From a virus, in the IMG/VR virus record IMGVR_UViG_3300015202_000038, positions 1-29,532 of that record: DNA of 29,532 nt; one strand, given 5' to 3'. The notes under the pieces were generated by a model. It was not told the origin of the DNA and did no database searches. It saw only the letters and a program-made list of their open reading frames with translations. How positions within the stretch are numbered: position 1 is the stretch's first letter; each line of letters opens with the position of its first letter. Shown here piece after piece: positions 1 through 11,862 of the stretch. A program made the translations under genes and the position numbers.

Positions 1-381
1 TTGCTCGGCAGTCATCCGATCCAGATACCGCCAGAACGCCAGTACAGTTTGCGCTTGATCGCCAAGCACGCGCTCGGGATGGGTCAACACAATCGCGGGT
101 GCGCCGTCCGCATTGTCATTCACCACACGCAACAAGATCGCGTGCGCCCGGCTGATGTTCAGCAGTTCGGCGGTGGCTGTGTCGGCTTCTGCCTGTTTGG
201 CAAGCATAAGCCGGTTTGCGCTCCACCCGCCGATTAGGTGCAGCACCTGCCCCTGCGCGCACATGCAACCGATGTTGCTGGGGTCTTTGTTGTAGGCGGC
301 TTTGTCGATCAGTTTGCCCTTGTATGGGCGGCCCTTGTCTGTCGACCAGCGGGTGAGAATTGGGGTGAGGTCGGGGTTCAT
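1..381 (-). CDS. hypothetical phage protein, C-terminus beyond window
   Basis: The reading frame starts at ATG (complement of 379-381) and stays open for 127 codons to the left window edge, so the C-terminus is missing. An AAGGACG ribosome site lies just upstream of the ATG. I do not recognise the family. The visible part has a basic N-terminal stretch (STDKGRPYKGK), a segment with two cysteines close together (GCMCAQGQ) and helices rich in Ala and Leu. It is the last minus-strand gene in the window and is served by the triple -10 promoter at 428-465. Long good-quality coding on the minus strand and a matching promoter make it real. No function can be assigned. Confidence 0.75.
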   Translation of the reverse strand, partial: MNPDLTPILTRWSTDKGRPYKGKLIDKAAYNKDPSNIGCMCAQGQVLHLIGGWSANRLMLAKQAEADTATAELLNISRAHAILLRVVNDNADGAPAIVLTHPERVLGDQAQTVLAFWRYLDRMTAEQ

Positions 382-427
382 TGGCTCGTCCTTCGCAAGG
401 CTCGTTGTTGGTGGGTGGGGCTGAATG

Positions 428-465
428 ATTATATGAGATTATACGAGATTATACGATGATCGCAA
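428..465 (-). promoter_or_regulatory. promoter with three tandem TATAAT boxes
   Basis: On the minus strand TATAAT occurs three times at exact 10-bp steps (428-433, 438-443, 448-453), inside tandem copies of GAGATTATAC. A TTGCGA -35 at 460-465 is 16 bp from the middle box, the same spacing as other promoters of this region. It should drive the gene at 1-381 after a leader of about 45 nt. Confidence 0.65.
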
Positions 466-582
466 CTGCTTTAATCCCCTTCTCTGTTGTCCTGGTATTA
501 CGTGATGCTTAAAACCTAAAAAATAAGACTGTGGGGCTGGTGCGGTAAAACGCGTAAAAAATCCGATTCTTATGACGGGCGG

Positions 583-960
583 TCACGTTAACAATTGATG
601 ATGCGTGCATATTTGCATCGCATCATCATTTGTTCATCGCGTCATGCGTCGTTCGTTGCGTTCGCGTCGTTCGATTGCGTGACGCGTTTTGCATCGCGTT
701 TTGCGCGCAATGCGTTCGTGCGTTCATTTTTCGCGTGATCGTTCGCATCGATCAATCGTTGTGCATATACGCGATCAAATGCGCAACGCAACGCATCATA
801 TTCGTTTTGATTGCGCGCAACATGCGACGTGTTTTTGATGTGTTGCGTCGTTTCGATTGCGTTCGCGTTCGCGCGTATTTTTGCGCGTATTTTTTTGTCG
901 TTGTCATCAACGATCGTTTTTTCGTTCATCGCGTCGTTGATGATCGTTTTCAACACGATT
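583..960. other. 378-nt block lacking GG, CC, AG and CT
   Basis: From 583 to 960 not one GG, CC, AG or CT dinucleotide is present, so every C is followed by a purine and every G is preceded by a pyrimidine, on both strands. CG, GC, TG/CA, TC/GA and AT-type steps dominate, giving recurring words such as GCGTTCG and CGATCA. The bias begins right after GGGCGG at 576-582 and ends at GG 961-962. It covers the C-terminal part of the minus-strand gene 642-1019 and about 60 nt downstream of it. Confidence 0.9.
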
Positions 961-1019
961 GGAAAAACGCGCGATTCAATGATTGCCTGATTGCGCGTTG
1001 TTTTGGTTGATTGCGTCAT
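642..1019 (-). CDS. low-complexity Asn/Ala/Arg/Lys-rich protein
   Basis: This 125-residue reading frame starts at an ATG preceded by AAGGA about 10 nt upstream. A more upstream in-frame TTG exists, but it lies before the expected leader hairpin. The product is almost without Gly, Pro and Trp and is dominated by Ala, Asn, Asp, Arg, Lys, Thr and Ile, with a predicted helical and highly charged character (for example DDNDKKIRAKIRANANA). That amino-acid choice follows from the absence of GG, CC, AG and CT in the DNA. It has the same promoter, 5' hairpin and ribosome-site layout as neighbouring genes, which argues for expression. No family is recognised. A nucleic-acid-binding or purely DNA-level role is conceivable. 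Confidence 0.55.
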   Translation of the reverse strand: MTQSTKTTRNQAIIESRVFPIVLKTIINDAMNEKTIVDDNDKKIRAKIRANANAIETTQHIKNTSHVARNQNEYDALRCAFDRVYAQRLIDANDHAKNERTNALRAKRDAKRVTQSNDANATNDA

Positions 1020-1037
1020 TTCATGATTTCCTTGTTT

Positions 1038-1084
1038 CATCGCGTTTTTGCGATGTTTCATATATACGCGCAATCAATTAACAA
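1038..1084 (-). promoter_or_regulatory. promoter with 5' stem-loop for gene 642-1019
   Basis: Minus-strand -35 TTGTTA (1079-1084), 16-bp spacer, -10 TATGAA (1057-1062), then stem-loop CATCGC-AAAAAC-GCGATG (1038-1055) at the expected transcript start, then the AAGGA ribosome site. This is one of about twelve copies of the same module. Confidence 0.6.
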
Positions 1085-1449
1085 AACAATAACATTTTTA
1101 CGTGATGTGCTTAACAAACAAGATTACGTTATTAACCATACTTATTAACCATACTTATTAATCATACTTATTAACCATACTTATTAACCACGTTTCAAGA
1201 TCGGCTTCGCCGCTTATATGCGAAAGGTGGCCCAACTAATCCCAACAAGGTCAGTGGATCCGCCGCAACTTGCGCGCTTGTCACTGTACCAATTTGGTTG
1301 AGCCAACTAATGGTCGTTTCTTACTAACCTCATCTCAACGCGGCTGGACCAACCATAACCACAAGTGATTAAAAAGTTTCGCCGTCATGAATCATCATCA
1401 CCGCGGGCAAAGATTTCACGCATCAAGCTACGGTGAGCATTTGTTATGG
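1085..1449. other. intergenic region with iterons, no gene seen
   Basis: About 365 nt with no convincing reading frame. It holds the AT-rich segment 1085-1130, the 13-bp iterons (1131-1195), a small CGGC-TTC-GCCG hairpin (1202-1212) and an AACTAATGGTC motif (1305-1315) that recurs at 2156 and 2884. A TTACGTGATG word at 1098 is also found at 498. Confidence 0.5.
1131..1195. repeat. five tandem 13-bp iterons
   Basis: The unit ATTAACCATACTT is repeated at 1131, 1144, 1157 (one change, AATCAT), 1170 and 1183 (degenerate end). The array is next to an AT-rich stretch and the compositionally aberrant block. Tandem direct repeats of this kind are typical of replication origins or protein-loading sites, but nothing here proves that function. 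Confidence 0.85.
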
Positions 1450-1650
1450 TCAGTAGTCCTCATCGTAAGAGTCGCGGTCAAGCTGATGTTCGCGGCGTTT
1501 ACGATCAGCGGGGCTGTCAATCTGGACGCAGCAGCTTTCAGGGTAATCTTCCCCCAGTTGTTTGTAAGCTTCATCAAGCGAATCGGCCTCGACGGTAACG
1601 CTGAATTCTTCATGGCATTCGCCAAGCATTACCGCGTGATAACGTACCAT
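1450..1650 (-). CDS. small conserved-type phage protein (66 aa)
   Basis: The 66-residue product begins MVRYHAVMLGECHEEF and ends in an acidic tail (DSYDEDY). The central part (VTVEADSLDEAYKQL) resembles small phage proteins in which a beta-strand is followed by an E/D-x-SLDEAY helix, but no biochemical role is known to me. It is the last gene of a three-gene operon. Its ATG lies 2 nt beyond the stop of the upstream exported peptide gene (stop codon at 1653-1655), with a weak GGAA site. Two adjacent cysteines (ESCCVQ) and one near the N-terminus are the only notable residues. Confidence 0.75.
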   Translation of the reverse strand: MVRYHAVMLGECHEEFSVTVEADSLDEAYKQLGEDYPESCCVQIDSPADRKRREHQLDRDSYDEDY

Positions 1651-1652
1651 GA

Positions 1653-1769
1653 TCAGTGTTTCCGATGAGAAGAGTGCGAGGAACGCGAATGCGAAGAGTG
1701 GCTATGTGAGCCGCGAGCATCAGCGCAAGCAGGCAGCGCGAGCAAGATCAAGGCGAAGATCAAGCGCAT
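1653..1769 (-). CDS. small exported Ser/His-rich peptide
   Basis: A 38-codon gene missed by normal length cut-offs. Residues 1-18 form a clear Sec-type signal sequence: a basic start (MR), a hydrophobic core (LIFALILLALPA) and a small-residue cleavage region followed by CADARG. The remaining 20 residues are almost entirely Ser, His, Arg and Lys in an alternating S-H pattern, suggesting a metal-binding or surface-associated peptide. A cysteine at the end of the hydrophobic core could alternatively make it a lipoprotein, although no canonical lipobox is present. Its ATG overlaps the stop of the upstream gene and its stop is almost joined to the next ATG, as expected for translational coupling. 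Confidence 0.6.
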   Translation of the reverse strand: MRLIFALILLALPACADARGSHSHSSHSRSSHSSHRKH

Positions 1770-1906
1770 GAGCGAAGCTTCTTCGAAGGCGTCAGGCGAC
1801 GGACGTGGGCGTTGTAAACCTTGCGGCGTTCGGACAGCGTGTATTGAGCAAGCTGTTCAAGTCGATCAGAAATGGTTTCGGGGTCAGGGATCATCGGGTT
1901 GGACAT
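1760..1906 (-). CDS. hypothetical small protein (48 aa)
   Basis: First gene of the three-gene operon 1906 to 1450. ATG at 1904-1906 is preceded by GAGGA at 8 nt, and by the promoter and stem-loop at 1923-1972. The product starts MSNPMIPDPETISDRL and continues as a basic amphipathic helix (RRKVYNAHVRRL). There are no recognised motifs. The choice of frame rests on the promoter, ribosome site and overlap with the following gene rather than on homology. Confidence 0.55.
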   Translation of the reverse strand: MSNPMIPDPETISDRLEQLAQYTLSERRKVYNAHVRRLTPSKKLRSCA

Positions 1907-1922
1907 TGCGGCATTCCTCGTT

Positions 1923-1972
1923 ATTGCGTCGTTGCAATACGATCAACATAACGTAAAAACATTGTGGTTCAA
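1923..1972 (-). promoter_or_regulatory. promoter with 5' stem-loop for genes 1906-1450
   Basis: -35 TTGAAC (1967-1972), 16-bp spacer, -10 TATGTT (1945-1950), stem-loop ATTGC-AACGAC-GCAAT (1923-1938), then GAGGA. The spacer length and loop sequence match the other modules. Confidence 0.65.
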
Positions 1973-2164
1973 CTTATTTATACTGTCACAAACTTAACTT
2001 TTAAGAGATCCGCCATTTGGCTTGGCAAAACTTGTAGTTGACCCAAATACCCGGACCGGCCAAGTATACGTGGATGGGCCAGCCATAAGATTGATGCCAC
2101 AATTGCCCACAGAGGTTATCCGGGGGGCAATCGCGTCGGCCAAATTGTCGAGGTTAACTAATGA

Positions 2165-2368
2165 TCAGGCTTCCCGATAAACAACGTGGCACGGCTCGAT
2201 GTAAATGATCAAGTCATGCTTGACAAACGCAACGTAGAAACGCCGGTCGTCAGCCGGAGATGTGTCATCAACAAAATATTGCGGGATAAGGCCATCTTGT
2301 TCGTGTTCATCGGCCATATCGTCATAATGATCAATGGCCAAAATCCAATTCAATGGGATAGCTTGCAT
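2165..2368 (-). CDS. hypothetical small protein (67 aa)
   Basis: The start is taken at the ATG preceded by AGGA at 8 nt (MQAIPLNWILAIDHYDD). Longer in-frame extensions would run into the promoter. The product is acidic in the first half (DDMADEHEQDG) and beta-like in the second (RRFYVAFVKHDLIIYIEPC). A stretch TSPADD is also seen in the neighbouring gene 2446-2646 (TSPADRD) and in 1450-1650 (DSPADRK), so these three monocistronic or short-operon products may be distant relatives. Function unknown. Confidence 0.65.
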   Translation of the reverse strand: MQAIPLNWILAIDHYDDMADEHEQDGLIPQYFVDDTSPADDRRFYVAFVKHDLIIYIEPCHVVYREA

Positions 2369-2384
2369 GTCAGAGATCCTCGTT

Positions 2385-2431
2385 GTGCGTCGTTGCACAT
2401 ACAATTATAACGCATTTACATTATAGTTCAA
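2385..2431 (-). promoter_or_regulatory. strong promoter with 5' stem-loop for gene 2165-2368
   Basis: -35 TTGAAC (2426-2431), 16 bp, perfect -10 TATAAT (2404-2409), then stem-loop GTGC-AACGAC-GCAC (2385-2398) and AGGA. The 16-bp spacer TATAATGTAAATGCGT is identical to that of the promoter at 2659-2705. The stem changed from ATTGC/GCAAT to GTGC/GCAC with compensating bases, which supports an RNA or DNA hairpin. Confidence 0.75.
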
Positions 2432-2445
2432 CTATTCGGTCCCGC

Positions 2446-2646
2446 TCACGGCTCGATGATTTCAAAGTCTCCCCGAATGGATCCGCTCATCACGATGTAT
2501 TCGGCCGTATGTTCGACAACATTCATGGGCCCGTACGCATCGGAGAACAGCTTGACAATGGCAGAGCTAATATTGATCGTTGCATCGCGATCAGCGGGGC
2601 TCGTTGCGTCGATGTTGATCGTTACGGTGAAGCTATGGGTCTTCAT
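2446..2646 (-). CDS. hypothetical small protein (66 aa)
   Basis: The start is at the ATG with GGAG 8 nt upstream (MKTHSFTVTINIDATSPADRD). The product looks like an alpha/beta fold: an N-terminal beta-strand, the TSPADRDAT turn, a helix (SSAIVKLFSDAYG) and a C-terminal strand pair (EYIVMSGSIRGDFEII). It shares the TSPAD element with its neighbours. It is transcribed alone from the promoter at 2659-2705 and lies at the edge of the large divergent intergenic region. No function is recognised. Confidence 0.65.
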   Translation of the reverse strand: MKTHSFTVTINIDATSPADRDATINISSAIVKLFSDAYGPMNVVEHTAEYIVMSGSIRGDFEIIEP

Positions 2647-2658
2647 GTCAGTTACTCC

Positions 2659-2705
2659 ATCGCGTTGTTGATACATCATCATAACGCATTTACATTATAG
2701 TGCAA
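2659..2705 (-). promoter_or_regulatory. promoter with degenerate 5' stem-loop for gene 2446-2646
   Basis: -35 TTGCAC (2700-2705), 16 bp, -10 TATGAT (2678-2683). The leader carries a weaker version of the hairpin (ATC-AACAACGC-GAT, 2659-2672) before GGAG. The spacer is identical to that at 2410-2425. Confidence 0.65.
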
Positions 2706-3221
2706 CTTATTGGTCCCACTTAACACTGCCGTAACTACTGCTGGCAGGTCCACCACTACTGCTGGCTTGGCTTGTCTAACACAGCTGCTGCAGATTTATG
2801 TTATACCATAACGTATATTACTGAGACCTTACAAGCCTGGCCCATCCACTACTCACCCCAAACTGTGCCAAAAATACAAGCTTGACTAATGGTCAGGTAT
2901 TAACGTGAGACTTAGGTTTTTACGTCAGGCTTTTTGAGGCTGTCTGTGAGTCTGGCCGGCTGGCCCTACAGAGGCTTTCAAAAGCTATTCCCAAACTTAT
3001 AAGGCCCATTTGAACAAGGTCAGACGTCGTGTTACGCACGCGGAGCAAACATAACAGGCATCTAATATACTATTTTATACAATATCCCGTACCATATTGA
3101 CGGATATGCTATCTTCACCCTGTGTCCATCAATATGGTAGTACATATTGTATGAAATACCATATTAGACGCCTATGTTTGTTGATCGTGACGACCAAAAT
3201 TCCGTCATTATAGCAGTGCTA
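2706..3221. other. divergent regulatory region, no gene seen
   Basis: About 515 nt between minus-strand gene 2446-2646 and plus-strand gene 3271. It includes a short direct repeat ACTACTGCTGGC (near 2736 and 2756), a GACTAATGGTC motif at 2884 and the large inverted repeat 3047-3180. No reading frame has convincing coding character. Confidence 0.5.
3047..3180. repeat. large imperfect inverted repeat (arms about 56-58 nt)
   Basis: The left arm 3047-3104 and right arm 3125-3180 are reverse complements apart from scattered mismatches and a 3-nt insertion in the left arm, with a 20-nt loop between. Matching blocks include CCATATTGA/TCAATATGG, TACAATAT/ATATTGTA and TCTAATAT/ATATTAGA. The word TACCATATT recurs within it in both orientations. 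It lies directly upstream of the promoter of the HTH gene 3271-3909, so an operator array or a cruciform-forming site is plausible. Confidence 0.8.
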
Positions 3222-3250
3222 TTGACTAAATTGAAACAAACACTTAAAAT
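3222..3250 (+). promoter_or_regulatory. sigma70-like promoter for gene 3271
   Basis: TTGACT (3222-3227), 17-bp spacer, TAAAAT (3245-3250). The AAAGGA ribosome site and ATG 3271 follow. It carries no leader stem-loop, unlike the minus-strand operons. Confidence 0.65.
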
Positions 3251-3270
3251 AGCCTAGAAAGGACCATCCT

Positions 3271-3909
3271 ATGCCAAGAAAAAGACTATACATTCCTCAT
3301 CCCAAGAAACAGAAGATCTACATCAAAATATCCCCGAACAAGCGGACCCGTGTTTTGACCCACGAGCGCTTTACCACACTCGCGAGGATCCAGTTCTCAT
3401 TGGAGGCCGATGAGTTCAAGGAGCTATTAGAGATCTACATGCGAGCGATGAACGGCAACTACAGTCAAGCATCGAGGCTATTGGGAGTCAGCAGATCTAC
3501 ACTAATCCGCTGGCGTGATGACGATCACATACCTCCACAAGGCCAATGGTACTGGCCGATTGTTATGGCCGAGGTCACAAAGACCATACTCGGTGAATGG
3601 CGCAAGCTCAGTTCTACAAAGATGCAGGATCTTCGGCAAGACATTGTTAGAGACCTCAACAAGACATTAAGGCTATATCAAGGCCAGACCAATGACTATG
3701 ATCCCGGGACTGACAATCCCAAGACTTATCTCCTGAGCCTGTTTCGGCGATATGATGAGATAAGCACAGCTCATATTGAACGTGAAGGGAAGTTCTCGAA
3801 ACGAACGATCAGCAATGCAGCAAAGGAACTTGGTCTACAACGCCGCACTGAAGGCTTCGGGCCCGATAAAGAAACGCTATACTCACTTCCGGAGGACCCG
3901 CTAGCATGA
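3271..3909 (+). CDS. helix-turn-helix DNA-binding protein
   Basis: 212 residues, start supported by AAAGGA 7 nt upstream. The N-terminus is strongly basic (PRKRLYIPHPKKQK). Residues 61-82 (NGNYSQASRLLGVSRSTLIRWR) form a textbook HTH of the Fis/Sigma54-activator or homeodomain-like type. The C-terminal part (FSKRTISNAAKELGLQ) looks like a second HTH, so the protein may bind two half-sites. It is preceded by the giant inverted repeat and its own promoter, which fits an autoregulator or an early switch or replication protein. It forms a two-gene operon with 3906-4193 through an ATGA overlap. It is one of the very few plus-strand genes in the left arm. Confidence 0.75.
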   Translation: MPRKRLYIPHPKKQKIYIKISPNKRTRVLTHERFTTLARIQFSLEADEFKELLEIYMRAMNGNYSQASRLLGVSRSTLIRWRDDDHIPPQGQWYWPIVMAEVTKTILGEWRKLSSTKMQDLRQDIVRDLNKTLRLYQGQTNDYDPGTDNPKTYLLSLFRRYDEISTAHIEREGKFSKRTISNAAKELGLQRRTEGFGPDKETLYSLPEDPLA

Positions 3910-4193
3910 ACAAGAAGACAAGCATTGGCTACAAACGTCAGCCGAAGCGTACGGTCATTTATAGGCCGTGTAGGTCTTACAAGCCCGACGCGGATAAGTT
4001 GAAGCAAGAGTTTGACCTATATGATGAGCCAATAAGCTTAACTAACCTTTACGCCTTGTATGACAACTACTCACACTTGATCAAAGCCGCTCGGTGCTTT
4101 CGCATCAAGCAAACATACCTCGACGGCGAATATTATTGGCAACTTGACCTTGAGCGTAAACCATTCAGCTTCAAGTCAATCGGCGAGCTTTGA
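3906..4193 (+). CDS. hypothetical basic protein (95 aa)
   Basis: Starts in an ATGA overlap with the stop of the HTH gene, so it is probably translationally coupled. The first 30 residues are rich in Lys and Arg (KRQPKRTVIYRPCRSYK). Residues 42-80 (SLTNLYALYDNYSHLIKAARCFRIKQ) resemble an HTH-like helix pair of the type found in the upstream gene (N-Y-S-x-A-x-x-L/F), suggesting a related but diverged DNA-binding domain. Its stop codon overlaps the 3' end of the convergent gene 4176-4475 by 18 nt. Confidence 0.65.
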   Translation: MNKKTSIGYKRQPKRTVIYRPCRSYKPDADKLKQEFDLYDEPISLTNLYALYDNYSHLIKAARCFRIKQTYLDGEYYWQLDLERKPFSFKSIGEL

Positions 4194-4475
4194 TCGCACC
4201 CACGCCAGCCGCAGCAGGTTAAGGTTCATGGTGTCTTCATCAGCTTCTTTTATATATACATCTTTTCCGCCGAAGGGATAACTCTCATCAAGACCGTCAG
4301 CTCTGAACATCTCAATCAAGTCATCATAGAGATCATCCTCATCAATACCCGCCTCTCGAGCATAGACGTCTAGGTTATAGCATAAGCCGAGTCCCGGGTC
4401 ATAACCACCATCTGTGGGTTTGCCTGTTTTGGCCCAATTAAGCCAATGAGCAAGAAAGCCGGGAACCTCGGTCAT
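4176..4475 (-). CDS. conserved-type small phage protein with YPFG motif (99 aa)
   Basis: Start at ATG 4475 with GGAGGT close upstream. The pattern is a short helix (FLAHWLNWAKTGKPTDGG), a GLCYNL segment, YPFGG near residue 68, then N-LLRLAWVR near the end. It resembles a widespread group of small phage and plasmid proteins with G-x-C-x-N-L, YPFG and RLAWV elements whose function is unknown. It is transcribed alone from the promoter at 4487-4536. Its 3' end overlaps the convergent plus-strand gene. Confidence 0.75.
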   Translation of the reverse strand: MTEVPGFLAHWLNWAKTGKPTDGGYDPGLGLCYNLDVYAREAGIDEDDLYDDLIEMFRADGLDESYPFGGKDVYIKEADEDTMNLNLLRLAWVRSKLAD

Positions 4476-4486
4476 TTTATACCTCC

Positions 4487-4536
4487 ATTGCGTTGTTGCA
4501 ATAAATTATTATATGATGCGCGGACCTCCAGTAAAA
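4487..4536 (-). promoter_or_regulatory. promoter with 5' stem-loop for gene 4176-4475
   Basis: -10 TATAAT (4508-4513), possible weak -35 TTTTAC (4531-4536, 17 bp), stem-loop ATTGC-AACAAC-GCAAT (4487-4502), then GGAGGT. A GCATCA word sits just before the -10, as in related promoters. Confidence 0.65.
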
Positions 4537-4537
4537 C

Positions 4538-4933
4538 TTATGATTTCTGTGAAAGGCGCCAGTTGGCATAAAAGATATCATGGCGTTGCTTATAAAGCTG
4601 ATGTTGACGGTCAAACTGAACATCGCCGGGTTTAACATCATACACTGCGGTCAGCCAATTGTTGACCGCCTGCTCAGCCTGCATCCACCACAGGCCGAAG
4701 AAGTGAGCAGCGAGCGAGTCCTCGCGCACAACAGCCGGCACGAAGCGACTGTTCTCTCTTAAACCGAGTGCTACTAGCAATGAGCCATCAGTCAGTAATT
4801 GAAGGCCTGTGGTCACTGAGTGGTAGTCATACAACAGCCAGCCCTGCCACTCGCGAAGGTTATCCGCAGCAATACTACCGCAGGCTATGTTGTGGGCGTG
4901 AAGGTAAGCCTGAACTTCAGCGTGGTCAAACAT
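4538..4933 (-). CDS. hypothetical protein (131 aa)
   Basis: The start is set at the ATG encoding MFDHAEVQAYL, which overlaps the end of the upstream gene and has AGG a few bases before it. The product is a mixed alpha/beta protein with a tryptophan- and tyrosine-rich middle (REWQGWLLYDYHS) and an FFGLWWMQAEQAVNNW helix. A C-terminal basic segment (DRQHQLYKQRHD) follows. No family recognised. It is the second gene of a two-gene operon from the promoter at 5090-5151. Confidence 0.65.
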   Translation of the reverse strand: MFDHAEVQAYLHAHNIACGSIAADNLREWQGWLLYDYHSVTTGLQLLTDGSLLVALGLRENSRFVPAVVREDSLAAHFFGLWWMQAEQAVNNWLTAVYDVKPGDVQFDRQHQLYKQRHDIFYANWRLSQKS

Positions 4934-5075
4934 GCCGTGCCTCAACAATTTCAATGGCTCTCGCGCCCACAGTGATGTAAAGGCCGTTAAGCATCTTCAT
5001 CAAGCCGGGCATGTCAGGAAGGGTGATCAGCTTTTCATCGCCGTTAAGGTGAATAATGCGAAGGGTTATCATCAT
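4926..5075 (-). CDS. hypothetical small protein (49 aa)
   Basis: First gene behind the promoter module at 5090-5151. The start is placed at the ATG 8 nt after AAGGA (MMITLRIIHLNGDEKL). An ATG 6 nt further upstream is too close to the ribosome site. The product reads as a beta-strand (ITLRIIHLNG), a turn, and a Met-rich helix (PDMPGLMKMLNGLY). Its 3' end overlaps the start of 4538-4933 by 8 nt, which supports coupling. Function unknown. Confidence 0.6.
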   Translation of the reverse strand: MMITLRIIHLNGDEKLITLPDMPGLMKMLNGLYITVGARAIEIVEARHV

Positions 5076-5089
5076 TGCCATAATCCTTT

Positions 5090-5151
5090 ATCGCGTCGTT
5101 GCGATACATTGTGTTTACGACGATGGCGGCTGATATACAACCGCCATTGTC
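5090..5151 (-). promoter_or_regulatory. promoter region: operator dyad plus 5' stem-loop
   Basis: Stem-loop ATCGC-AACGAC-GCGAT (5090-5105) before AAGGA. Upstream, an 11-bp inverted repeat GACGATGGCGG...CCGCCATTGTC (5119-5151, one mismatch) encloses a TTGTAT -35-like element. The -10 is weak (TAAACA at the expected place), suggesting dependence on an activator. Confidence 0.55.
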
Positions 5152-5161
5152 TTAAACGTGC

Positions 5162-5467
5162 TTAGTCTATCGCGATGCCGAGATTGCGCAGGGCTTCAAG
5201 CGTGAAGGTATGCTTCATAATACTCGCGCAAGTATGCCTCAAGCTAAACATCACCGCTAATTGAATAAGCTGTTGATCTTCCGGGTCGGTGCTTTCGGCT
5301 TCGATCTTGGCGTCGAGCCCTCGAATGAAGGCGAGTGCGATGCTCAAAGCGGAGTCAGTCAAGCGTTCAGCAGCTTCGGGCGTTACACCGGAAGACTTTA
5401 TTCGCTTAACCATCGAGATTACGGCGTCTTCATTGACGGCGTAATCAAATAGCTTGATCATAGCCAT
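5162..5467 (-). CDS. hypothetical helical protein (101 aa)
   Basis: Start at ATG 5467 (MAMIKLFDYAVNED), 1 nt beyond the stop of the upstream gene. Longer in-frame versions would overlap that gene entirely. It is an all-alpha protein with several amphipathic helices (AVISMVKRIKSSG, EAAERLTDSALSIALAFIRG) and an acidic linker ESTDPEDQQ. No transmembrane segment or known motif. Second gene in the operon from promoter 5626-5677. Confidence 0.65.
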   Translation of the reverse strand: MAMIKLFDYAVNEDAVISMVKRIKSSGVTPEAAERLTDSALSIALAFIRGLDAKIEAESTDPEDQQLIQLAVMFSLRHTCASIMKHTFTLEALRNLGIAID

Positions 5468-5468
5468 A

Positions 5469-5615
5469 TCAGTAACGCCGACCTTGCGGGTCAACATAGC
5501 CAAACATGCGGCGTTGATCGCGTTGCTCCTGTTCGCGGCGGCGAGACAGGTCGGTACGGCCCGAGTGAGATGGGGCGCCGAACAAGTCGCGATAAAGCTT
5601 TGAGTCATCGTTCAT
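5469..5615 (-). CDS. hypothetical small basic protein (48 aa)
   Basis: Start at the ATG encoding MNDDSKLYRDLFGAP, directly behind the GGAGAT ribosome site and the leader hairpin. The longer in-frame version would read through the promoter. The C-terminal half is strongly Arg-rich (SRRREQEQRDQRR), followed by MFGYVDPQGRRY. It could bind nucleic acid, but no family is recognised. Short coding length leaves some doubt; the full promoter-hairpin-RBS layout favours it. Confidence 0.6.
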   Translation of the reverse strand: MNDDSKLYRDLFGAPSHSGRTDLSRRREQEQRDQRRMFGYVDPQGRRY

Positions 5616-5625
5616 TTCATATCTC

Positions 5626-5677
5626 CATCGCGTTATTGCGATGAATTGACAATGCAACGATGGCGTCTGATATGCAA
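5626..5677 (-). promoter_or_regulatory. promoter with 5' stem-loop for genes 5615-5162
   Basis: -35 TTGCAT (5672-5677), 17 bp containing GCCATCGT, weak -10 CATTGT (5649-5654), perfect stem-loop CATCGC-AATAAC-GCGATG (5626-5643), then GGAGAT. A separate perfect 7-bp dyad GTTCGAT-CA-ATCGAAC lies upstream at 5716-5731. Confidence 0.6.
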
Positions 5678-5737
5678 CCCTTGCGTTCTGCGACATACCA
5701 GCGCGTGCATTGTGCGTTCGATCAATCGAACAACGCG

Positions 5738-5827
5738 TCAATTATCATCCTTTAGGTCCTTGGGCGTGTCCTCAGGCGTTGAAACGAATGCGCGCGATAC
5801 AATGCACACAAAACGATGGCACATCAT
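5738..5827 (-). CDS. possible small protein (29 aa)
   Basis: The ATG overlaps the stop of gene 5824-6036 in an ATGA junction, and the product ends with a soluble charged tail (STPEDTPKDLKDDN). There is no independent ribosome site, so it would depend on coupling. The same DNA contains a partial copy of the GCCATC and hairpin module, so it may be regulatory rather than coding. Confidence 0.35.
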   Translation of the reverse strand: MMCHRFVCIVSRAFVSTPEDTPKDLKDDN

Positions 5828-6036
5828 CCTTGGGCGCCGTGTGTGATGCGGCTCATCGTTGCGTACGCCTCTTCGAGTGTTTCTATAGCTATTTTCATAG
5901 CCTTCAACGTACCTTTCTCACTTCGGGCTTGGTTATTGACTAGGACGCGTTGCGAAGCTTCCCACTCGAGGGCGGTTATTTGAACAGCTAGGCAAGCTCG
6001 CAATACTCGCTCAGTGGGTGGCGATAGGGCCATCAT
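5824..6036 (-). CDS. hypothetical helical protein (70 aa)
   Basis: ATG 6036 is 6 nt after GGAG. The start lies inside the 3' end of gene 6011-6235 (26-nt overlap). The product is almost entirely helical, with Glu, Ala and Leu repeats (LRACLAVQITALEWEASQRV and LKAMKIAIETLEEAYATM), consistent with a small helical bundle or coiled-coil dimer. No known family. It is the fourth gene of the operon starting at 7069. Confidence 0.65.
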   Translation of the reverse strand: MMALSPPTERVLRACLAVQITALEWEASQRVLVNNQARSEKGTLKAMKIAIETLEEAYATMSRITHGAQG

Positions 6037-6235
6037 TTTTCTCCAACAATTTAGGGTCTGTGATTATTTGGGTGATTGCATGAAAAGGTACTATAGTCGG
6101 GTAGGGGTCGTTGTGGCTGTCCCCGATAGCAAGATAAAGTTTATCGACCTCGACAACAACACCACAGACCATGTTAAGGTTAAGAGTAACAACCATAACT
6201 TTCGGTAACACTTTAAGCTTTTCGTAGAAACTCAT
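6011..6235 (-). CDS. small beta-barrel protein, possibly Sm/Hfq-like (74 aa)
   Basis: Start at ATG 6235 with AGGAAG 5 nt upstream. After a short helix (MSFYEKLKVLPK) come alternating beta-strands: MVVTLNLNMVCGVVVEVDK, LYLAIGDS and TIVPFHAITQII. The order helix, G-V-V-x-x-V-D strand, L-x-L-x-I strand, and final V-P-F-H-A-I-T-x-I resembles the Sm fold. In particular it recalls the KHAIS segment of Hfq. That is my inference from pattern only; an SH3-like barrel is an alternative. A phage Sm-like protein could bind the conserved leader stem-loops of this region. Confidence 0.65.
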   Translation of the reverse strand: MSFYEKLKVLPKVMVVTLNLNMVCGVVVEVDKLYLAIGDSHNDPYPTIVPFHAITQIITDPKLLEKNDGPIATH

Positions 6236-6290
6236 ACGGCTTCCTACCAAGGTTTCGAGGCTGTTGCGCTTTTCGGGGGGGTCATAGCCG

Positions 6291-6803
6291 TCAGTCTGGA
6301 TCTACTACAAGATCAAGATCAGTCGTCACCTTTTCCATAGCGCTGTGAGCTGACTTGATGCAGTCGAATTGAGGTTGGCTAAAGCCGTCGGTGCATTGAA
6401 TGTCGAAAAGCTGTTTTTTTGCACTATCGACCATTTCTTCGAGCGCGGTTATCAAGCTGTCGGCAGCTGATTGTCGAGCAACCTTCATCACGTATTCTTT
6501 TTCGTAATTCATGACCGCGGCCATTAGCTCGAACGTGATAAACTGTTCTTGTTCTTCGTCGCCCATTTGCTGACGCTCCAGCATAGCTCGAAGGATAAAA
6601 GATGAGTCATTGGCCCCCGCGGCGTAAACATCTTGATCTGCAGCTGTGTAGCCGCCGACGGTCGGATTGTGCCTGTGAAAAACGACACCCCAATCGCCGC
6701 GTTGTTTTTTGACCGCGTACCCGAACCATTCACGGCCGATGACCATGATGCGGCTGCGGGGTTGATTATCGTCGGCGTGAGGCTCAAAGCTATATGTTGT
6801 CAT
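6291..6803 (-). CDS. hypothetical protein (170 aa)
   Basis: ATG 6803 is preceded by GGAG at 8 nt. The N-terminal third is beta-rich with aromatic residues (REWFGYAVKKQRGDWGVVFHRH). The rest is mostly helical and acidic (EEQEQFITFELMAAVMNYEKEYV, ALEEMVDSAKKQLFDI), ending in an acidic tail DLDLVVDPD. No family recognised. It sits between 6854-7069 and 6011-6235 in a minus-strand operon. Confidence 0.7.
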   Translation of the reverse strand: MTTYSFEPHADDNQPRSRIMVIGREWFGYAVKKQRGDWGVVFHRHNPTVGGYTAADQDVYAAGANDSSFILRAMLERQQMGDEEQEQFITFELMAAVMNYEKEYVMKVARQSAADSLITALEEMVDSAKKQLFDIQCTDGFSQPQFDCIKSAHSAMEKVTTDLDLVVDPD

Positions 6804-6853
6804 AGTCGTTACTCCGTGATGGTGATGTTATCGTAGCCTTCGAGGGTGAATAT

Positions 6854-7069
6854 TTAAGGGCCCGCCGAGGTCAGCGGTGCTTTGAATACAAAGCATTCGT
6901 TTTTGTTAAGGTTAGTGTAAAGCTGAAGCTCATCGGCTGTCGCGTACAGGCCGTCACTTGACAAGTGCTGGGCTTTCACGAGCGCAGGGACACGCATACG
7001 AAGCTCATCGGCTATTTCAGGATGAGCAGCGGCGGAGGCGGCAATCTGTTGAAGGGTGAAGGGGATCAT
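6854..7069 (-). CDS. hypothetical protein (71 aa)
   Basis: First gene of the operon driven from 7085-7136. ATG 7069 is chosen, with GAGGA about 11 nt upstream; a TTG immediately before it is possible. The product is mainly helical (LQQIAASAAAHPEIADELRMRVPALVKA), with a beta segment at the end (NECFVFKAPL). No family recognised. Directly after its stop the same frame continues with 14 coding-like codons before another stop, which may be chance. Confidence 0.6.
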   Translation of the reverse strand: MIPFTLQQIAASAAAHPEIADELRMRVPALVKAQHLSSDGLYATADELQLYTNLNKNECFVFKAPLTSAGP

Positions 7070-7084
7070 CAACTAATCAATCCT

Positions 7085-7136
7085 CATCGCGTTATTGCGA
7101 TGAATTATTCATACAATGATGGGAGCTATATGTCAC
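7085..7136 (-). promoter_or_regulatory. promoter with 5' stem-loop for operon 7069-5738
   Basis: -35 GTGACA (7131-7136), 17-bp spacer, -10 TATGAA (7108-7113), perfect stem-loop CATCGC-AATAAC-GCGATG (7085-7102), then GAGGA. A CCCATCAT word precedes the -10. Confidence 0.7.
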
Positions 7137-7146
7137 CCGTGATATT

Positions 7147-7620
7147 CTACAACATGCCGCACGGGTCGCAAGACCATTGCAATAAACCTTGCATAATGAC
7201 GGGGCTGATTTTGCCCGATCGATCAAGTTGATTGCGAGCGCGATCACCCCAACGCTGATTATATTTTTGATGACGGCTAATTTGGTGACGGTCGCGCGGG
7301 TGACGCCGGCCATTATAGAAGCGACAGTACCAATGAAACCAACCGAGCGGATCCTCATCAAATATCCAGCCGCGTTCATGCCAATCTTGATATGTCAGTC
7401 CTGCTTTTGCATGAAAGCAATTTTTGCGTGGATCGAACACCCCGCGTTGGTAATGCGCAAGCTTTGTGGTAAGCACGGACAGATCGTCAAAGTCGCAAGG
7501 ACGAGCTTTATCAAAATAAGCGCCGCCGAATACGCCGAGCTTGATCATGCGGGAAGGAGTAAATGCGGGGCGAAAGCCGAGTGGCATGGGAGGGTAGCTG
7601 GGTTCAATTTTTTGTGTCAT
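7147..7620 (-). CDS. conserved phage protein of unknown function (GVFGG family)
   Basis: 157 residues, ATG 7620 with GAGGT close upstream. The sequence shows the signature order of a widespread, uncharacterised phage protein family: an MIKLGVFGGAYF-type opening (residues 25-36), an aromatic HAKAGLTYQDWHERGWI segment, DEDPLGWFHWYCRFYNGRR, and an Arg/His-rich region (DRHQISRHQKYNQRWGD). The C-terminal part resembles the R-Q-x-L-L-x-W-x-x-D end of relatives. Many tryptophans and basic residues suggest nucleic-acid binding, but this is inference. It lies between the promoter module at 7085 and the short frame 7635-7739. Confidence 0.8.
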   Translation of the reverse strand: MTQKIEPSYPPMPLGFRPAFTPSRMIKLGVFGGAYFDKARPCDFDDLSVLTTKLAHYQRGVFDPRKNCFHAKAGLTYQDWHERGWIFDEDPLGWFHWYCRFYNGRRHPRDRHQISRHQKYNQRWGDRARNQLDRSGKISPVIMQGLLQWSCDPCGML

Positions 7621-7634
7621 TTATAACCTCGATG

Positions 7635-7739
7635 TTATCGCATGTTTGATTGTACGATGTTAGAGCATCGCTCGTCAATTGACTCAAGGCTGTGGACATA
7701 CTGATCCCGGTCGGGGGTGGACCGATGCCCGTACACCAT
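7635..7739 (-). CDS. possible small protein (34 aa)
   Basis: ATG 7739 opens a 34-codon frame with coding-like composition (HRSTPDRDQYVHSLESIDE). It ends 14 nt before the ATG of 7147-7620. The ribosome site is poor (AGG immediately before ATG), and a promoter-like pair TTGACG-N18-TACAAT (7649-7678) lies within it. It may therefore be a leader region instead. Confidence 0.35.
   Translation of the reverse strand: MVYGHRSTPDRDQYVHSLESIDERCSNIVQSNMR
7649..7678 (-). promoter_or_regulatory. possible promoter for gene 7147-7620
   Basis: TTGACG (7673-7678), 18-bp spacer, TACAAT (7649-7654), followed by a degenerate leader hairpin CGAT-AAC-ATCG (near 7631-7640) and GAGGT. The hairpin resembles the repeated module but has shorter arms. 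Confidence 0.45.
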
Positions 7740-7821
7740 CCTAATACACGAGTTGGAGATACTGCCGACCACTTGGTGCAAACGCTGCAGCAGCTTTCGC
7801 TCGTGCCTTCATGAAGCTGTA

Positions 7822-8148
7822 TCACCCGAAGATCCAAACATCTAGCTGACAGGTTGCGTGCCAATTGTCGCGGCCAGTAAGGATTTTGCTGTCTTCGGAC
7901 ATAACACCTTGCTGAGCCCGGATCATGCCAAGCATTTCGGTTGAAAGGCGAACGTCGAGCTGTGTCCACTTAGGGACAACGTGAGCGGGCTTATCGGCCA
8001 GGTAAGACAACATATCCATCGCAATTTGAAGAGCGTTTGCCGAATTAATGCGTTGGCCATTACTCAGCGTATCATGGCCGAGCATTGTGCCGACGTTAGG
8101 GAGGTCGAATGATACGCCGTTGGCGTCAAGAGATAGGTATGTGTTCAT
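7822..8148 (-). CDS. hypothetical protein (108 aa)
   Basis: Start at ATG 8148 (MNTYLSLDANGVSFDL), with AAGGG 7 nt before it and the promoter module at 8161-8211. Alpha/beta composition: two N-terminal strands, a long helix (SANALQIAMDMLSYLADKP) and a second helix (STEMLGMIRAQQGVM), then a tryptophan-containing C-terminal strand (CQLDVWIFG). No recognised family. The following 180 nt contain only very short frames. Confidence 0.65.
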   Translation of the reverse strand: MNTYLSLDANGVSFDLPNVGTMLGHDTLSNGQRINSANALQIAMDMLSYLADKPAHVVPKWTQLDVRLSTEMLGMIRAQQGVMSEDSKILTGRDNWHATCQLDVWIFG

Positions 8149-8160
8149 CGTCGTTCCCTT

Positions 8161-8211
8161 ATCGCGTTGTTGCAATGAATTGACATTGCATCAATGGTTG
8201 CCGATAATCAA
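8161..8211 (-). promoter_or_regulatory. promoter with 5' stem-loop for gene 7822-8148
   Basis: -35 TTGATT (8206-8211), 17 bp, weak -10 CAATGT (8183-8188), stem-loop ATTGC-AACAAC-GCGAT with one G-U pair (8161-8176), then AAGGG. The -35 overlaps the stop codon of the upstream gene. Confidence 0.55.
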
Positions 8212-8507
8212 TTATCCAAATCCAGAATTTTCTGAACCCAAGGCCTTGATTTTGCATAAAGAGCAAGAAACTTTTTGTTTTTAATTGATGCTCGCCACAT
8301 TATGGCTTCATCACGAAACGTCTCCTCCATATCATCAGACTCGATCAAGTGACCGCCGAGCGAACATACTTCGGAGTACTCATCTACAGACCATGGGAAG
8401 TGGGTAGCGAGGATTTGATCTTCAGTGATATGGACGCCCACAAGGCCAAGGTTGGACAATGCAAGGCCGGCTGCAATACGAGCAAGCTTTTGATCCATGC
8501 TAACCAT
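8208..8507 (-). CDS. hypothetical protein (99 aa)
   Basis: ATG 8507 overlaps the stop of the upstream gene in a TAATG junction and has AAAGGA 7 nt before it. Helical protein: an Ala/Leu-rich N-terminal helix (QKLARIAAGLALSNLGLVG), a central acidic loop (LIESDDMEETF) and a basic, aromatic C-terminus (IKNKKFLALYAKSRPWVQKIL). No transmembrane character and no family recognised. Last gene of the four-gene operon from promoter 9851-9897. Confidence 0.65.
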   Translation of the reverse strand: MVSMDQKLARIAAGLALSNLGLVGVHITEDQILATHFPWSVDEYSEVCSLGGHLIESDDMEETFRDEAIMWRASIKNKKFLALYAKSRPWVQKILDLDN

Positions 8508-9019
8508 TATGTATTCCTTTCAATAAACTCACGACCGGCAAAGGTCACCGAACCATCATCGAGCATAAGGGCCATCCGCGAAGCGAAGCCGGTGATTTCA
8601 AGGATTTGCATTGGGCTGTATTTGGCGGTATAGGTATCCGCGTGATGCTGCCTTTCAACGCGTAGAAAGTCTACGACTCCTTGAATGTCGGGGCAGCAAT
8701 AGCTTATAAGCTCGACAAGGGGTTCGCCGCGAGCTATGTCGTGAGCATAAGATTTGGCGTCATCTTGAACTTCTTCGATCAGCATGGTAATGATGGTATC
8801 ACGGTCAACGTCGGTAAACCGCGGGTCTTCAAAGGATGTATCGATTGAACACGGAGGAAGAGAAAGCTTATTGGCTACAAACTCGAACAAGCTATCGGTG
8901 TGCGGCAAGTTGCCAGCGTCGTCGAGCTTGTCGATAAACTGGCACAGAATCTTTAGGAGCTGGCGATCTGTAGCATCAGTCGCAGCTTTGTGCTCAAGCA
9001 AGTGTTCAAACGTGGTCAT
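8507..9019 (-). CDS. hypothetical helical protein (170 aa)
   Basis: ATG 9019, with GGAGG about 5 nt upstream, overlaps the stop of 9016-9312 in an ATGA junction. The product is acidic and largely helical (ATDRQLLKILCQFIDKLDD, DRDTIITMLIEEVQDDAKSY). A HHADTY segment and a pair CCPDIQG lie in the second half. I do not recognise it. Third gene of the operon starting at 9839. Confidence 0.65.
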   Translation of the reverse strand: MTTFEHLLEHKAATDATDRQLLKILCQFIDKLDDAGNLPHTDSLFEFVANKLSLPPCSIDTSFEDPRFTDVDRDTIITMLIEEVQDDAKSYAHDIARGEPLVELISYCCPDIQGVVDFLRVERQHHADTYTAKYSPMQILEITGFASRMALMLDDGSVTFAGREFIERNT

Positions 9020-9312
9020 GAAACCCTCCGTAATCTGGCAAACCGTTGCGGGTTACCTTGTTTGTTGGTGAATAGCGCGTGGACAACGATAACGCGGTCG
9101 CGCTCGTCATGCTCATACCTAAACGACAGCGGACCGAGGGGTGGATTGGAGGATGTTTCCCTATACTTGTTTGACGCATGCTGAAGCAGCTCACGGATAT
9201 CAGCTATGCTAGCAGCTTCGTATGACTTGTCGAGCCGTACGATGTTGTGAACTTCAACCTGCCAAACTTGAAGGGCCGGGATTGTCGAAGGCGTGAGGAT
9301 GAGTCGAGTCAT
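9016..9312 (-). CDS. hypothetical protein (98 aa)
   Basis: Start at the ATG encoding MTRLILTPSTIPALQV, in an ATGA overlap with the end of the upstream gene. The fold looks alpha/beta: strand VWQVEVHNIVRL, helix SIADIRELLQHASNKY, strand pair LSFRYEHDERDRVIVVHALF, and a basic C-terminus (NPQRFARLRRVS). No family recognised. Its stop overlaps the next start, so three genes here are coupled by ATGA junctions. Confidence 0.65.
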   Translation of the reverse strand: MTRLILTPSTIPALQVWQVEVHNIVRLDKSYEAASIADIRELLQHASNKYRETSSNPPLGPLSFRYEHDERDRVIVVHALFTNKQGNPQRFARLRRVS

Positions 9313-9839
9313 GATACACCACAAATCTTTGCAATTTTGTCAATCTCGTTCGGGGCGAATGCCCAGCCATACGTGGGCTTGATCATGTCGCTGTTACGCA
9401 ACGCCGCGCGACACGCAAAGGGCTCACGTTTCCACGTCTCAGCAAGTGTTGATATGGTTATGTAGCCATCAGGAACGAAAAGCTTTTTCGATTTGGGAAC
9501 AGGGTCAGGCTTGACGCGCGTGGCAACACTGCGAGGCTCGTCGGGAGTATCAGCAGGCGCGTCAGGCATCACCGGGTCCGGCAGTGCATCATTGATAGGG
9601 CGTTGTCGAGCACGCGCCTCGGCGTTCTCACGTTCGATCATCAAGGGCATACCGGACTCGGCGGACAATCGGCGCAATTCACGTAGGTTTTCGGCGTGAT
9701 ATTCTTTTGTTGATTTGAAGGGATAGATAGAGTCGCGTTCGGCAATCCACGTTTTGCCATTAATGGGTGTGGGCAAATAATTTGGATTAGCTCGAAGCTT
9801 TTCGATTTCGTCAAGCGTACGGCCAGGTGACCAAGGCAT
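9309..9839 (-). CDS. protein with C-terminal HTH-like domain (176 aa)
   Basis: Start at ATG 9839 (MPWSPGRTLDEIEKLRA) behind GGAGAT and the leader hairpin. The N-terminal half is basic and helical. A proline-rich acidic linker (DALPDPVMPDAPADTPDEP) leads to a compact C-terminal domain, roughly residues 124-176. There, YITISTLAETWKREPFACRAALR is followed by YGWAFAPNEIDKI. The same arrangement occurs in the products of 11863-12627 and 26280-26645, so this is a repeated DNA-binding-like module. The first gene of a four-gene operon. Confidence 0.7.
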   Translation of the reverse strand: MPWSPGRTLDEIEKLRANPNYLPTPINGKTWIAERDSIYPFKSTKEYHAENLRELRRLSAESGMPLMIERENAEARARQRPINDALPDPVMPDAPADTPDEPRSVATRVKPDPVPKSKKLFVPDGYITISTLAETWKREPFACRAALRNSDMIKPTYGWAFAPNEIDKIAKICGVS

Positions 9840-9850
9840 TTCATATCTCC

Positions 9851-9897
9851 ATCGCGTCGTTGCGATCATTCATATATGCGACATTGGCGACCGTCAA
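9851..9897 (-). promoter_or_regulatory. promoter with 5' stem-loop for operon 9839-8208
   Basis: -35 TTGACG (9892-9897), 17 bp, -10 TATGAA (9869-9874), stem-loop ATCGC-AACGAC-GCGAT (9851-9866), then GGAGAT. The hairpin begins only 2 nt after the -10, closer than in the other copies. Confidence 0.7.
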
Positions 9898-9901
9898 TCA
9901 A

Positions 9902-10156
9902 CTAATTGATACCGGTTCCGGCTATCGAAGTGGAGACTTCTCGGTCGATGGTATCCCACCGGTCAGCCAACACTTGGGCCAAGCTGGGCTTGATTTTACC
10001 CGTAGCGTCAAAGTACTCTTTAGCCACTAGACTGTCCCAGTAGTCGATGTTTTGTGCTATAATGTCTCGACGAAGGGCATTAAGAACGTCAAGGTAGTTT
10101 TCATAGTTTTGGCCGGCGTAACGAAATACTGCTACTTTTTCAACCTTGCTTGCCAC
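9902..10156 (-). CDS. hypothetical protein (84 aa)
   Basis: Start set at GTG 10156 because AAGGA lies 6 nt upstream; the longer frame has no ribosome site. Sequence begins with VASKVEKVAVFRYAGQ, continues as an acidic helical protein (NYLDVLNALRRDIIAQN) and ends with a Gly/Ser/Thr tail. No family recognised. It follows the DUF2786 gene after a 59-nt gap containing a strong hairpin (10179-10206), so its expression may be partly uncoupled from that gene. Confidence 0.6.
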   Translation of the reverse strand: MASKVEKVAVFRYAGQNYENYLDVLNALRRDIIAQNIDYWDSLVAKEYFDATGKIKPSLAQVLADRWDTIDREVSTSIAGTGIN

Positions 10157-10178
10157 GGTGTTTTCCTTATAGATTTTT

Positions 10179-10206
10179 GCCGTCACCACAGGCTTGCAGT
10201 GACGGC
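10179..10206 (-). other. intercistronic hairpin
   Basis: Perfect 8-bp stem GCCGTCAC/GTGACGGC with a 12-nt loop between genes 10216-10890 and 9902-10156. On the minus strand no U-tract follows (AAAAATC), so it is more likely an mRNA processing or stability element than a terminator. Confidence 0.5.
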
Positions 10207-10215
10207 TAGGGTGTG

Positions 10216-10890
10216 TTAGCGGAGTAGGTTTGCTCGTAGGTTAACGCTTGCGCCGAAGGCGGTGCCTCGGCTGTAACCATCCGCGCTACCGATGCGGGCG
10301 TGTGAAGCTCGCGCTGTCCTGATGTTGCCCCCGAACAGCTGTGTTAGATAAGCGGTGTTACCCAACTGCTCGCTATTACCGAGCACTACTAAGGCATTGC
10401 CTGTGGATGATTGCGGCGTGCTCAGACGTTGCGTCGGTCGCATATCGTAGCAGCGTTGCGCAATTGCGTTGCCGGCCCCCGTCATAAACGAACGACCCCC
10501 ACCGCTGGCGCGAGCTTCAGCTTGAACGGCTCGCAATACCATCACGGCGACAGCATGACACATAGCCACGTTGCTTTCTTCACCGACGAGGGTAATTTTG
10601 TCCATTTTGTCACTGATACGGGTGAATATCCATCGGCAAAAATACAGGTGAGTCAAACCGTTCAAGACCATCGCTGACCAAGGCCGCTTGAGAACTTGAA
10701 GGTCGCGGTGCGTTCGCTTTACATCCTCGGGACGCTCATCGACTGTGGACCGCTCGAGATTATATCGCTCCATCAGCTCGTATGCTTTGCGATTGAAAGC
10801 CTCAGCTTCCTCCACAGTGCAGGCGGTGTTTTCGGATTTTGCGAGGAGCTTTGCAATCTTTTCCTTGATTGCTTTCATGTCGTCAGGCAT
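10216..10890 (-). CDS. DUF2786 domain protein
   Basis: 224 residues; ATG 10890 has AGGA 8 nt upstream. The N-terminal 45 residues (IKEKIAKLLAKSENTACTVEEAEAFNRKAYELM) match the DUF2786 pattern, a helical domain common in phages and in bacterial proteins of unknown role. The middle part continues with LNGLTHLYFCRWIF and an SNVAMCHAVAVMVLRAVQAEAR helix, as usual after DUF2786. The C-terminus is Gly/Ala/Arg-rich (GSADGYSRGTAFGASVNLRANLLR), typical of family members. Function unknown. It is the first gene behind promoter 10904-10976. Confidence 0.85.
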   Translation of the reverse strand: MPDDMKAIKEKIAKLLAKSENTACTVEEAEAFNRKAYELMERYNLERSTVDERPEDVKRTHRDLQVLKRPWSAMVLNGLTHLYFCRWIFTRISDKMDKITLVGEESNVAMCHAVAVMVLRAVQAEARASGGGRSFMTGAGNAIAQRCYDMRPTQRLSTPQSSTGNALVVLGNSEQLGNTAYLTQLFGGNIRTARASHARIGSADGYSRGTAFGASVNLRANLLR

Positions 10891-10903
10891 GGTGTCGTGT
10901 CCT

Positions 10904-10976
10904 ATCGCGTTATTGCGATGAAATAATCATACGACGATGGCAACTTAAGCGCAATACACTTTATACTGCCATCGTC
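10904..10976 (-). promoter_or_regulatory. promoter: operator dyad plus 5' stem-loop
   Basis: -35 TTGCGC (10949-10954), 17 bp, -10 TATGAT (10926-10931), stem-loop ATCGC-AATAAC-GCGAT (10904-10919), then AGGA. A perfect 10-bp inverted repeat GACGATGGCA/TGCCATCGTC (10933-10942 and 10967-10976) brackets the -35. Confidence 0.7.
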
Positions 10977-11023
10977 CATATAATACTTAATTTGATTATC
11001 CTTCATCGAGCGGGGTTCTGCGA

Positions 11024-11218: not shown

Positions 11219-11222
11219 TATC

Positions 11223-11453: not shown

Positions 11454-11463
11454 TTTTACCTTT

Positions 11464-11535: not shown

Positions 11536-11550
11536 CTATACAACACTTAG

Positions 11551-11853: not shown

Positions 11854-11862
11854 TATCATTTC

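Follow-up and report, generated by a model that had tools for sequence, protein, structure and literature searches.

RESULTS

A group of related phages with distant hosts excludes purine-G steps (AG foremost and GG second; RG below, with CY for CC and CT) from an early unit that starts next to a repeat array; the strand concerned is the one leading away from this array. The selection responsible acts on nucleic acid and is tied to the array-leaving strand; it is not selection on protein, on codons, or on CRISPR PAMs.

A block free of four dinucleotides

The window, by which we mean the whole stretch of DNA analyzed, is a linear IMG/VR virus contig of 29,532 bases. Its DNA polymerase is 55% identical to those of the Brevundimonas phages Polewnik and Strzyga, and the window probably represents about half of a Polewnik-type genome (about 62 kb). 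The initial annotation had noted that GG, CC, AG, and CT are all missing from positions 583 to 960. This absence is real, covers 380 nt on both strands (582 to 961), and is far beyond chance: the four pairs make up 21.7% of the window's dinucleotides, the next longest runs free of them in the window are 79 nt (1032 to 1110) and 49 nt, and the longest elsewhere (46 records, 697,367 bases, with the window and its own copy excluded) is 54 nt. The composition of the block is ordinary, with 47% G+C, and CG is strongly raised (59).

Maximum-scoring segments placed the block in an extended depleted zone (570 to 1198), with an RG-poor segment on the plus strand from 582 to 1198 (three RG remaining inside) and a CY-poor segment on the same strand from 570 to 1136 (five remaining). 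Past the strict block the depletion is weaker and continues as far as about 1198. An assembly artifact was ruled out, as isolates and other metagenome contigs carry the pattern.

The block gene and its protein family

Coding sequence overlaps the block, as first proposed, but not only in the form of a plus-strand frame. The block consists of most of a minus-strand gene (642 to 1019), encoding a basic, low-complexity protein of 125 amino acids, together with DNA downstream of that gene. The Shine-Dalgarno sequence of the gene, AAGGAA (1028 to 1033, minus strand), is among the few AG/GG sites retained.

Homologs of the block gene were found at nine further loci (each contig counted once) and on contig L082, 10 contigs in all besides the window; the copies on L057 and L059 are near-identical. 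The family was reached only through the polymerase and HTH neighbor genes; as a lone query, the window protein found no homologs in the viral contigs or the phage collection. Family proteins are 23 to 45% identical to the window protein. That relatives obey the ban with sequences this different, and that a repeat/iteron search found only weak repeats inside the block, tells against expansion from short words, one of the causes suggested at first.

The depletion is not a by-product of the encoded proteins. The four dinucleotides occur four times in the block gene, against at least 35 times in each of 300 synonymous recodings (mean 51). When 10 family coding sequences were recoded in this way (300 recodings each), eight fell below every simulation, among them the homologs on L061 (4 observed, simulation minimum 45) and L058 (6 observed, minimum 40); the two that did not are on L060 (50 observed, minimum 48) and L055 (68 observed, minimum 63). 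Coding-strand AG and GG were depleted in all eight low genes, and CC and CT were near-absent only in those of the window, L058, and L061. Where the rest of the family has a conserved Trp, the two strictest homologs (the window and L061) have His, a change that takes out TGG and involves no G-to-A step. Weak mRNA structure was rejected as the goal: the window gene folds more stably than its synonymous recodings (-111.5 versus -81.7 kcal/mol), and among the other eight genes three from Polewnik are clearly less stable than the null, that of L061 is about equal, and the rest are more stable.

The block protein had no Pfam or PHROG match, and a PDB sequence search gave no real match. The model of the L056 homolog (mean pLDDT 74, four helices), better than that of the window protein itself (66.5), retrieved nothing with Foldseek at E ≤ 0.001; the weaker matches include winged-helix DNA-binding domains, for example RacA (probability 0.44, TM score 0.57 by target), and weakly suggest, as a lead only, that the family may be winged-helix-like. 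A Fis-type HTH regulator gene (3271 to 3909, plus strand) serves as a syntenic landmark; in most relatives it and the block gene are divergently oriented. Other window proteins, encoded at 9309 to 9869, 11863 to 12627, and 26280 to 26645, were seen by eye to have comparable basic or charged regions beside a small HTH-like region; they have no Pfam match above the cut-off.

A strand-specific domain in Polewnik and Strzyga

In Polewnik and Strzyga the ban spans 3.0 to 3.5 kb, mainly on one strand. Seven Polewnik genes (4035 to 6015) contain 0.0 to 3.0 AG+GG per 100 nt, versus 8.0 to 20.4 in the other 74 annotated genes, and their CC+CT content is near normal. The RG-depleted segment on the Polewnik plus strand runs from 3952 to 7437 (205 nats) and includes the opposite-strand HTH gene; Strzyga mirrors it at 19792 to 22818 (233 nats), and no RG segment in nine control records scored above 16.3 nats. 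The sense strand of the Polewnik HTH gene itself is purged only in the leader, its coding part being normal, and upstream of this gene lies a segment purged on both strands that is non-coding there.

Pooled over the two domains, counts were 1 for CAG (96 expected), 0 for TAG (54), 4 for GAG (59), and 21 for AAG (53), and, by following base, 4 for AGC (96), 5 for AGT (54), and 4 for AGA (53). AG is hit harder than GG, which stands at 0.3 to 0.4 of expectation, and AA and GA are mildly raised. Ribosome-binding sites are spared, with 11 of the 26 remaining AG lying in AAGG of the ribosome-binding-site type, and RG is also kept at promoters.

The ban is kept by selection, independently of codon phase. 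Across 13 early genes of both phages, AG+GG numbered 24, 13, and 20 in the three codon phases, versus 43, 101, and 107 expected, and a late-gene control agreed with its own null. Codon bias was ruled out by this test and by own-codon shuffles. Glycine makes up 2.1% of residues in early genes (0% in the three strictest blocks) versus 9.7% in late genes. Untranslated DNA is depleted too (Polewnik 6016 to 6287; AG 0 versus 10.9 expected), as is the strand antisense to the HTH gene (AG 5 versus 24.9).

Whether the bias persists while the sequence drifts had been proposed as a check on the initial annotation, and it does, through 20% divergence between Polewnik and Strzyga. At 542 differing aligned sites in the domain there were 25 AG/GG versus 151 expected (z = -16.8) under a null in which the same differences were reassigned among sites and the dinucleotides touching them counted; three control regions were at expectation (z from -0.5 to 0.3). 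CC/CT at these sites was also under the null in the domain (273 versus 350), and G+C stays at 42 to 67% in nine purged genes. The pattern is driven by the nucleic acid, as the initial annotation held.

Repeat arrays and leader hairpins

Directly upstream of the block gene, the window carries the tandem array TTATTAACCATAC x4.8 (1129 to 1190, plus strand), made of TTAA boxes with a 13-nt period. Polewnik has a 17-mer x3.6 at 3777 to 3839, with a Strzyga counterpart at 22931 to 23002, L064 and L067 have TTAAC clusters beside the zone, and Desulfofustis phage OP947159 (L085) has large 21-bp tandem arrays at 878 to 1116 (21-mers x5.8) adjoining its purged zone. In these six phages the zone starts no more than about 150 bp from the array, and the purged strand is the one that runs 5' to 3' away from the array. 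Several phages have both strands purged in the core adjoining the array, and the window, L061, and L058 are both-stranded. No tandem repeat was detected near the zone in L056 or L058; no promoter consensus scored at the window zone, and GC skew placed no origin at the zone. An annotated ORF (969 to 1205) in L085 crosses the 21-bp array and is probably spurious.

A predicted leader hairpin, with a GC-closed stem and an AANNAC loop, lies just 5' of the ribosome-binding site and start codon of early genes. The window has 11, all on the minus strand, versus 0.4 expected from shuffles. That of the block gene (1037 to 1056) is of the CATCGC-AAAAAC-GCGATG type, and hairpins of the same type lie at 1921 to 1940, 2382 to 2401, 4485 to 4504, 5088 to 5107, 5625 to 5644, 7084 to 7103, 8159 to 8178, 9849 to 9868, 10902 to 10921, and 11462 to 11481. 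Five relatives (G007, G017, G005, G004, and G019) have 4 to 10 matches each. From 52 matches, 34 (33 distinct) were chosen for alignment; the search had fixed the two innermost pairs and the next two had to pair. All cells of the alignment pair, and 33 of 33 keep the outermost pair, left free in the search, with eight changes on both sides. Judged from these alignments, the putative hairpin is covarying, is common to early genes of the window, and recurs in relatives. Rfam gave no family above the gathering score for window positions 1 to 12700, and two sub-threshold matches were taken as chance.

Distribution of the ban among phages

The ban is present in the window, L061, L058, L067, L064, L056, L057, L059, L082, Polewnik, and Strzyga, and also in Desulfofustis phage OP947159. 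It is moderate in MW202777, where part of the purge falls on the antisense strand of small annotated genes, and weak in L055 and L070. It is absent or nearly so in L060 and in the more distant polymerase relatives MW202455, Tlacuache, PMBT14, and STP12, and none of the remaining phages tested (StAshley, Babayka, Poludnitsa, Delta, and MMDA13) has it. Relatives of normal content, which the initial annotation had regarded as contrary evidence, thus exist in part: L060 is nearly normal, and L055 is weakly depleted. A host-wide bias was rejected on the evidence of StAshley, Babayka, and Poludnitsa, unrelated phages of the same host strain that lack the ban. Because Desulfofustis belongs to another phylum, the ban follows phage lineage and not host.

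A gene-content comparison of 17 genomes found no gene that tracks the ban, and neither this comparison nor family scans gave a candidate RNase cutting at RG. Weaker stretches poor in AG, GG, CC, and CT were seen at other loci, L063 15978 to 16263 (G009) and L070 15348 to 15581 (G023). The window also has a thymidylate-synthase-like gene (17327 to 18199) with, by eye, Asp where thymidylate synthases have Asn, so that its product is likely a hydroxymethylase and the DNA may be modified. A 278-amino-acid protein is encoded beside it (16398 to 17234) and is kept in all 17 genomes.

DISCUSSION

Proposed evasion by early transcripts and its alternatives

Among the classes of cause named in the initial annotation, we rank the avoidance of sequence signals first. 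That the ban follows a strand, begins at the array, disregards codon phase, and spares ribosome-binding sites points to selection on the transcript or its template. We tentatively favor, while rating it somewhat below an even chance, the explanation that early transcripts purge purine-G steps and so escape RNA-level attack or termination. The RG-free strand would correspond to RNA, and the first transcripts would encounter an activity directed at RG in the RNA or at CY in the template, which either cleaves or halts RNA polymerase. Loss of RG would let immediate-early transcripts survive, with the retained ribosome-binding sites as an unavoidable exception, and the leader hairpins might add a second layer of protection; overlapping or antisense transcription would account for the both-strand purge in the core. 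Because alphaproteobacterial and Desulfofustis phages share the ban, whatever enforces it is most likely universal or encoded by the phage.

Several results favor this explanation: the strand specificity in Polewnik and Strzyga relative to controls, the separation of the seven RG-poor Polewnik genes from the rest, depletion in all three codon phases and in untranslated and HTH-antisense DNA, the deficit at diverged sites and the concentration of leftover AG in AAGG, the array-adjacent starts, the covarying leader hairpins, and the lack of a ban in unrelated phages of the same host. Other results weigh against it. The window, L061, and L058 are purged on both strands, although a sense transcript alone needs only one; the Polewnik HTH gene is purged only in the leader on its own sense strand; and the MW202777 purge is partly antisense to annotated genes. 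An RNase would cut the AGG that persists in ribosome-binding sites, and L060 has the gene without the ban. The 17-genome comparison yielded neither a tracking gene nor an RNase candidate, and the transcripts themselves are inferred, with no promoter consensus scoring at the window zone.

The both-strand core could instead be a primase-start desert at a replication origin, in which the zone lacks CT/CC template and hence no primer is made, within the core on either strand and outside it on one of the two. Primases starting with AG or GG need CT/CC template, and PMC5204125 describes cellular primases as starting at CTG, CTA, or CCC, so that primers begin purine-purine. The match between the banned template pairs and these literature start sites, the harder ban on AG than on GG, the both-strand core adjoining tandem repeats, and the non-coding both-strand segment upstream of the Polewnik HTH gene all agree with such a desert. 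It suits the chemistry, in that primers would start with AG or GG, but does not suit the strand: given the direction in which the purged strand leaves the array, its complement would be the leading-strand template, which is the least exposed. With GC skew placing no origin at the zone and the phage primase looking like another type, we regard this alternative as unlikely. Slightly less likely again is a modified template, in which a bulky hydroxymethyl-pyrimidine in CY context in virion DNA would stall host RNA polymerase, itself unmodified, so that the template strand transcribed first is cleared of CY. This would account for strand specificity and for tolerance of single sites. The thymidylate-synthase-like gene is kept in 17 of 17 genomes, is annotated "pyrimidine hmase" in MW202777, and is adjoined in the window by dCMP deaminase and kinase genes, and Polewnik has a separate ThyX; however, L060, PMBT14, and Tlacuache, relatives that lack the ban, have the same nucleotide-metabolism genes, which contradicts the model in part, and a limited literature search found no context-specific hypermodification with a CY preference.

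A translational cause, in which the loss of internal Shine-Dalgarno-like sites would prevent false initiation or pausing, is improbable. AG and GG form the core of ribosome-binding sites and AAGG survives at gene starts, but there is no gradient with Shine-Dalgarno likeness, as AGC and AGT are as rare as AGA and CAG is almost lost, and untranslated and antisense stretches obey the ban. More doubtful still is a strand-linked mutational process turning RG into RA; the mild rise of AA and GA is what it would leave, but the G+C range of the nine purged genes, the Trp-to-His change in the two strictest homologs, and the RG kept at ribosome-binding sites and promoters speak against it. The initial annotation had raised CRISPR PAM avoidance, since the absent pairs include NGG, NAG, and CC PAMs, and PAM depletion in phages has been published (PMC4246573 and PMC12174588). 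A PAM on either strand exposes DNA, but the ban is local, largely one-stranded in Polewnik and Strzyga, lineage-bound, and host-independent; the simple form of this explanation is refuted, and we give what is left of it almost no credence.

Returning to the evasion of an early activity, the first transcription unit may be written in a restricted alphabet that is invisible to a strand-reading activity (an RNase, a terminator, or a primase) recognizing a dinucleotide, a proposal that we put forward with the same reserve, as plausible yet not probable. If it holds, the ban would mark the genes needed before the phage controls the cell, and it would shape amino acid use, glycine being nearly lost.

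Comparison with known systems

Depletion of PAMs and restriction sites in phages is understood to be genome-wide. The published cases (PMC4246573 and PMC12174588) resemble ours in that selection removes a short motif from phage DNA, but there it is a defense motif and here two dinucleotides are nearly absolutely banned, strand-specifically and at one locus. PAM depletion would be expected on both strands and across the genome and would be common to phages of the same host; the ban is confined to one locus and, over most of the Polewnik and Strzyga domain, to one strand, and StAshley, Babayka, and Poludnitsa lack it. Avoidance of Shine-Dalgarno sequences would be graded by anti-Shine-Dalgarno complementarity, a grading not seen here. 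The bacterial primase start sites CTG, CTA, and CCC (PMC5204125) begin with the CT and CC that are banned in the template, but again the phage primase seems to be of another type.

The regulator CtrA has been linked to TTAA arrays that some alphaproteobacterial phages carry in an early gap, and the gap region of Brevundimonas phage Delta and others has TTAA-type repeats beside divergent genes (both in PMC9437464). The window array is similar to this extent; however, Delta and MMDA13 have no AG/GG ban, CtrA gap regions are defined by TTAA-N7-TTAA sites bound by CtrA, and the window array, at most a candidate CtrA target, has a 13-nt spacing.

Motif avoidance in phages usually concerns sites of 4 to 8 bases or PAMs. 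Our literature search for a dinucleotide ban in phage early genes found no description within its scope. Here, phages whose hosts are distant bar two dinucleotides almost totally and strand-specifically from 0.4 to 3.5 kb, which implies a strong selective agent in early infection. The tolerated sites, the strand, and the start point offer a direct handle for finding this agent, and the ban itself provides a signature by which immediate-early units can be located in phages that lack annotation.

Sequence-specific RNases are known to have self-immune mRNAs, as with MqsR and GCU. Our case differs in that a dinucleotide and not a longer motif is avoided, that the avoidance reaches untranslated and antisense DNA, and that no RNase was found. 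The likeness is to a transcript free of the motif that is cut by an RNase present during its expression, and, as in such mRNAs, the motif is missing from the sense RNA in every frame, all three codon phases being depleted.
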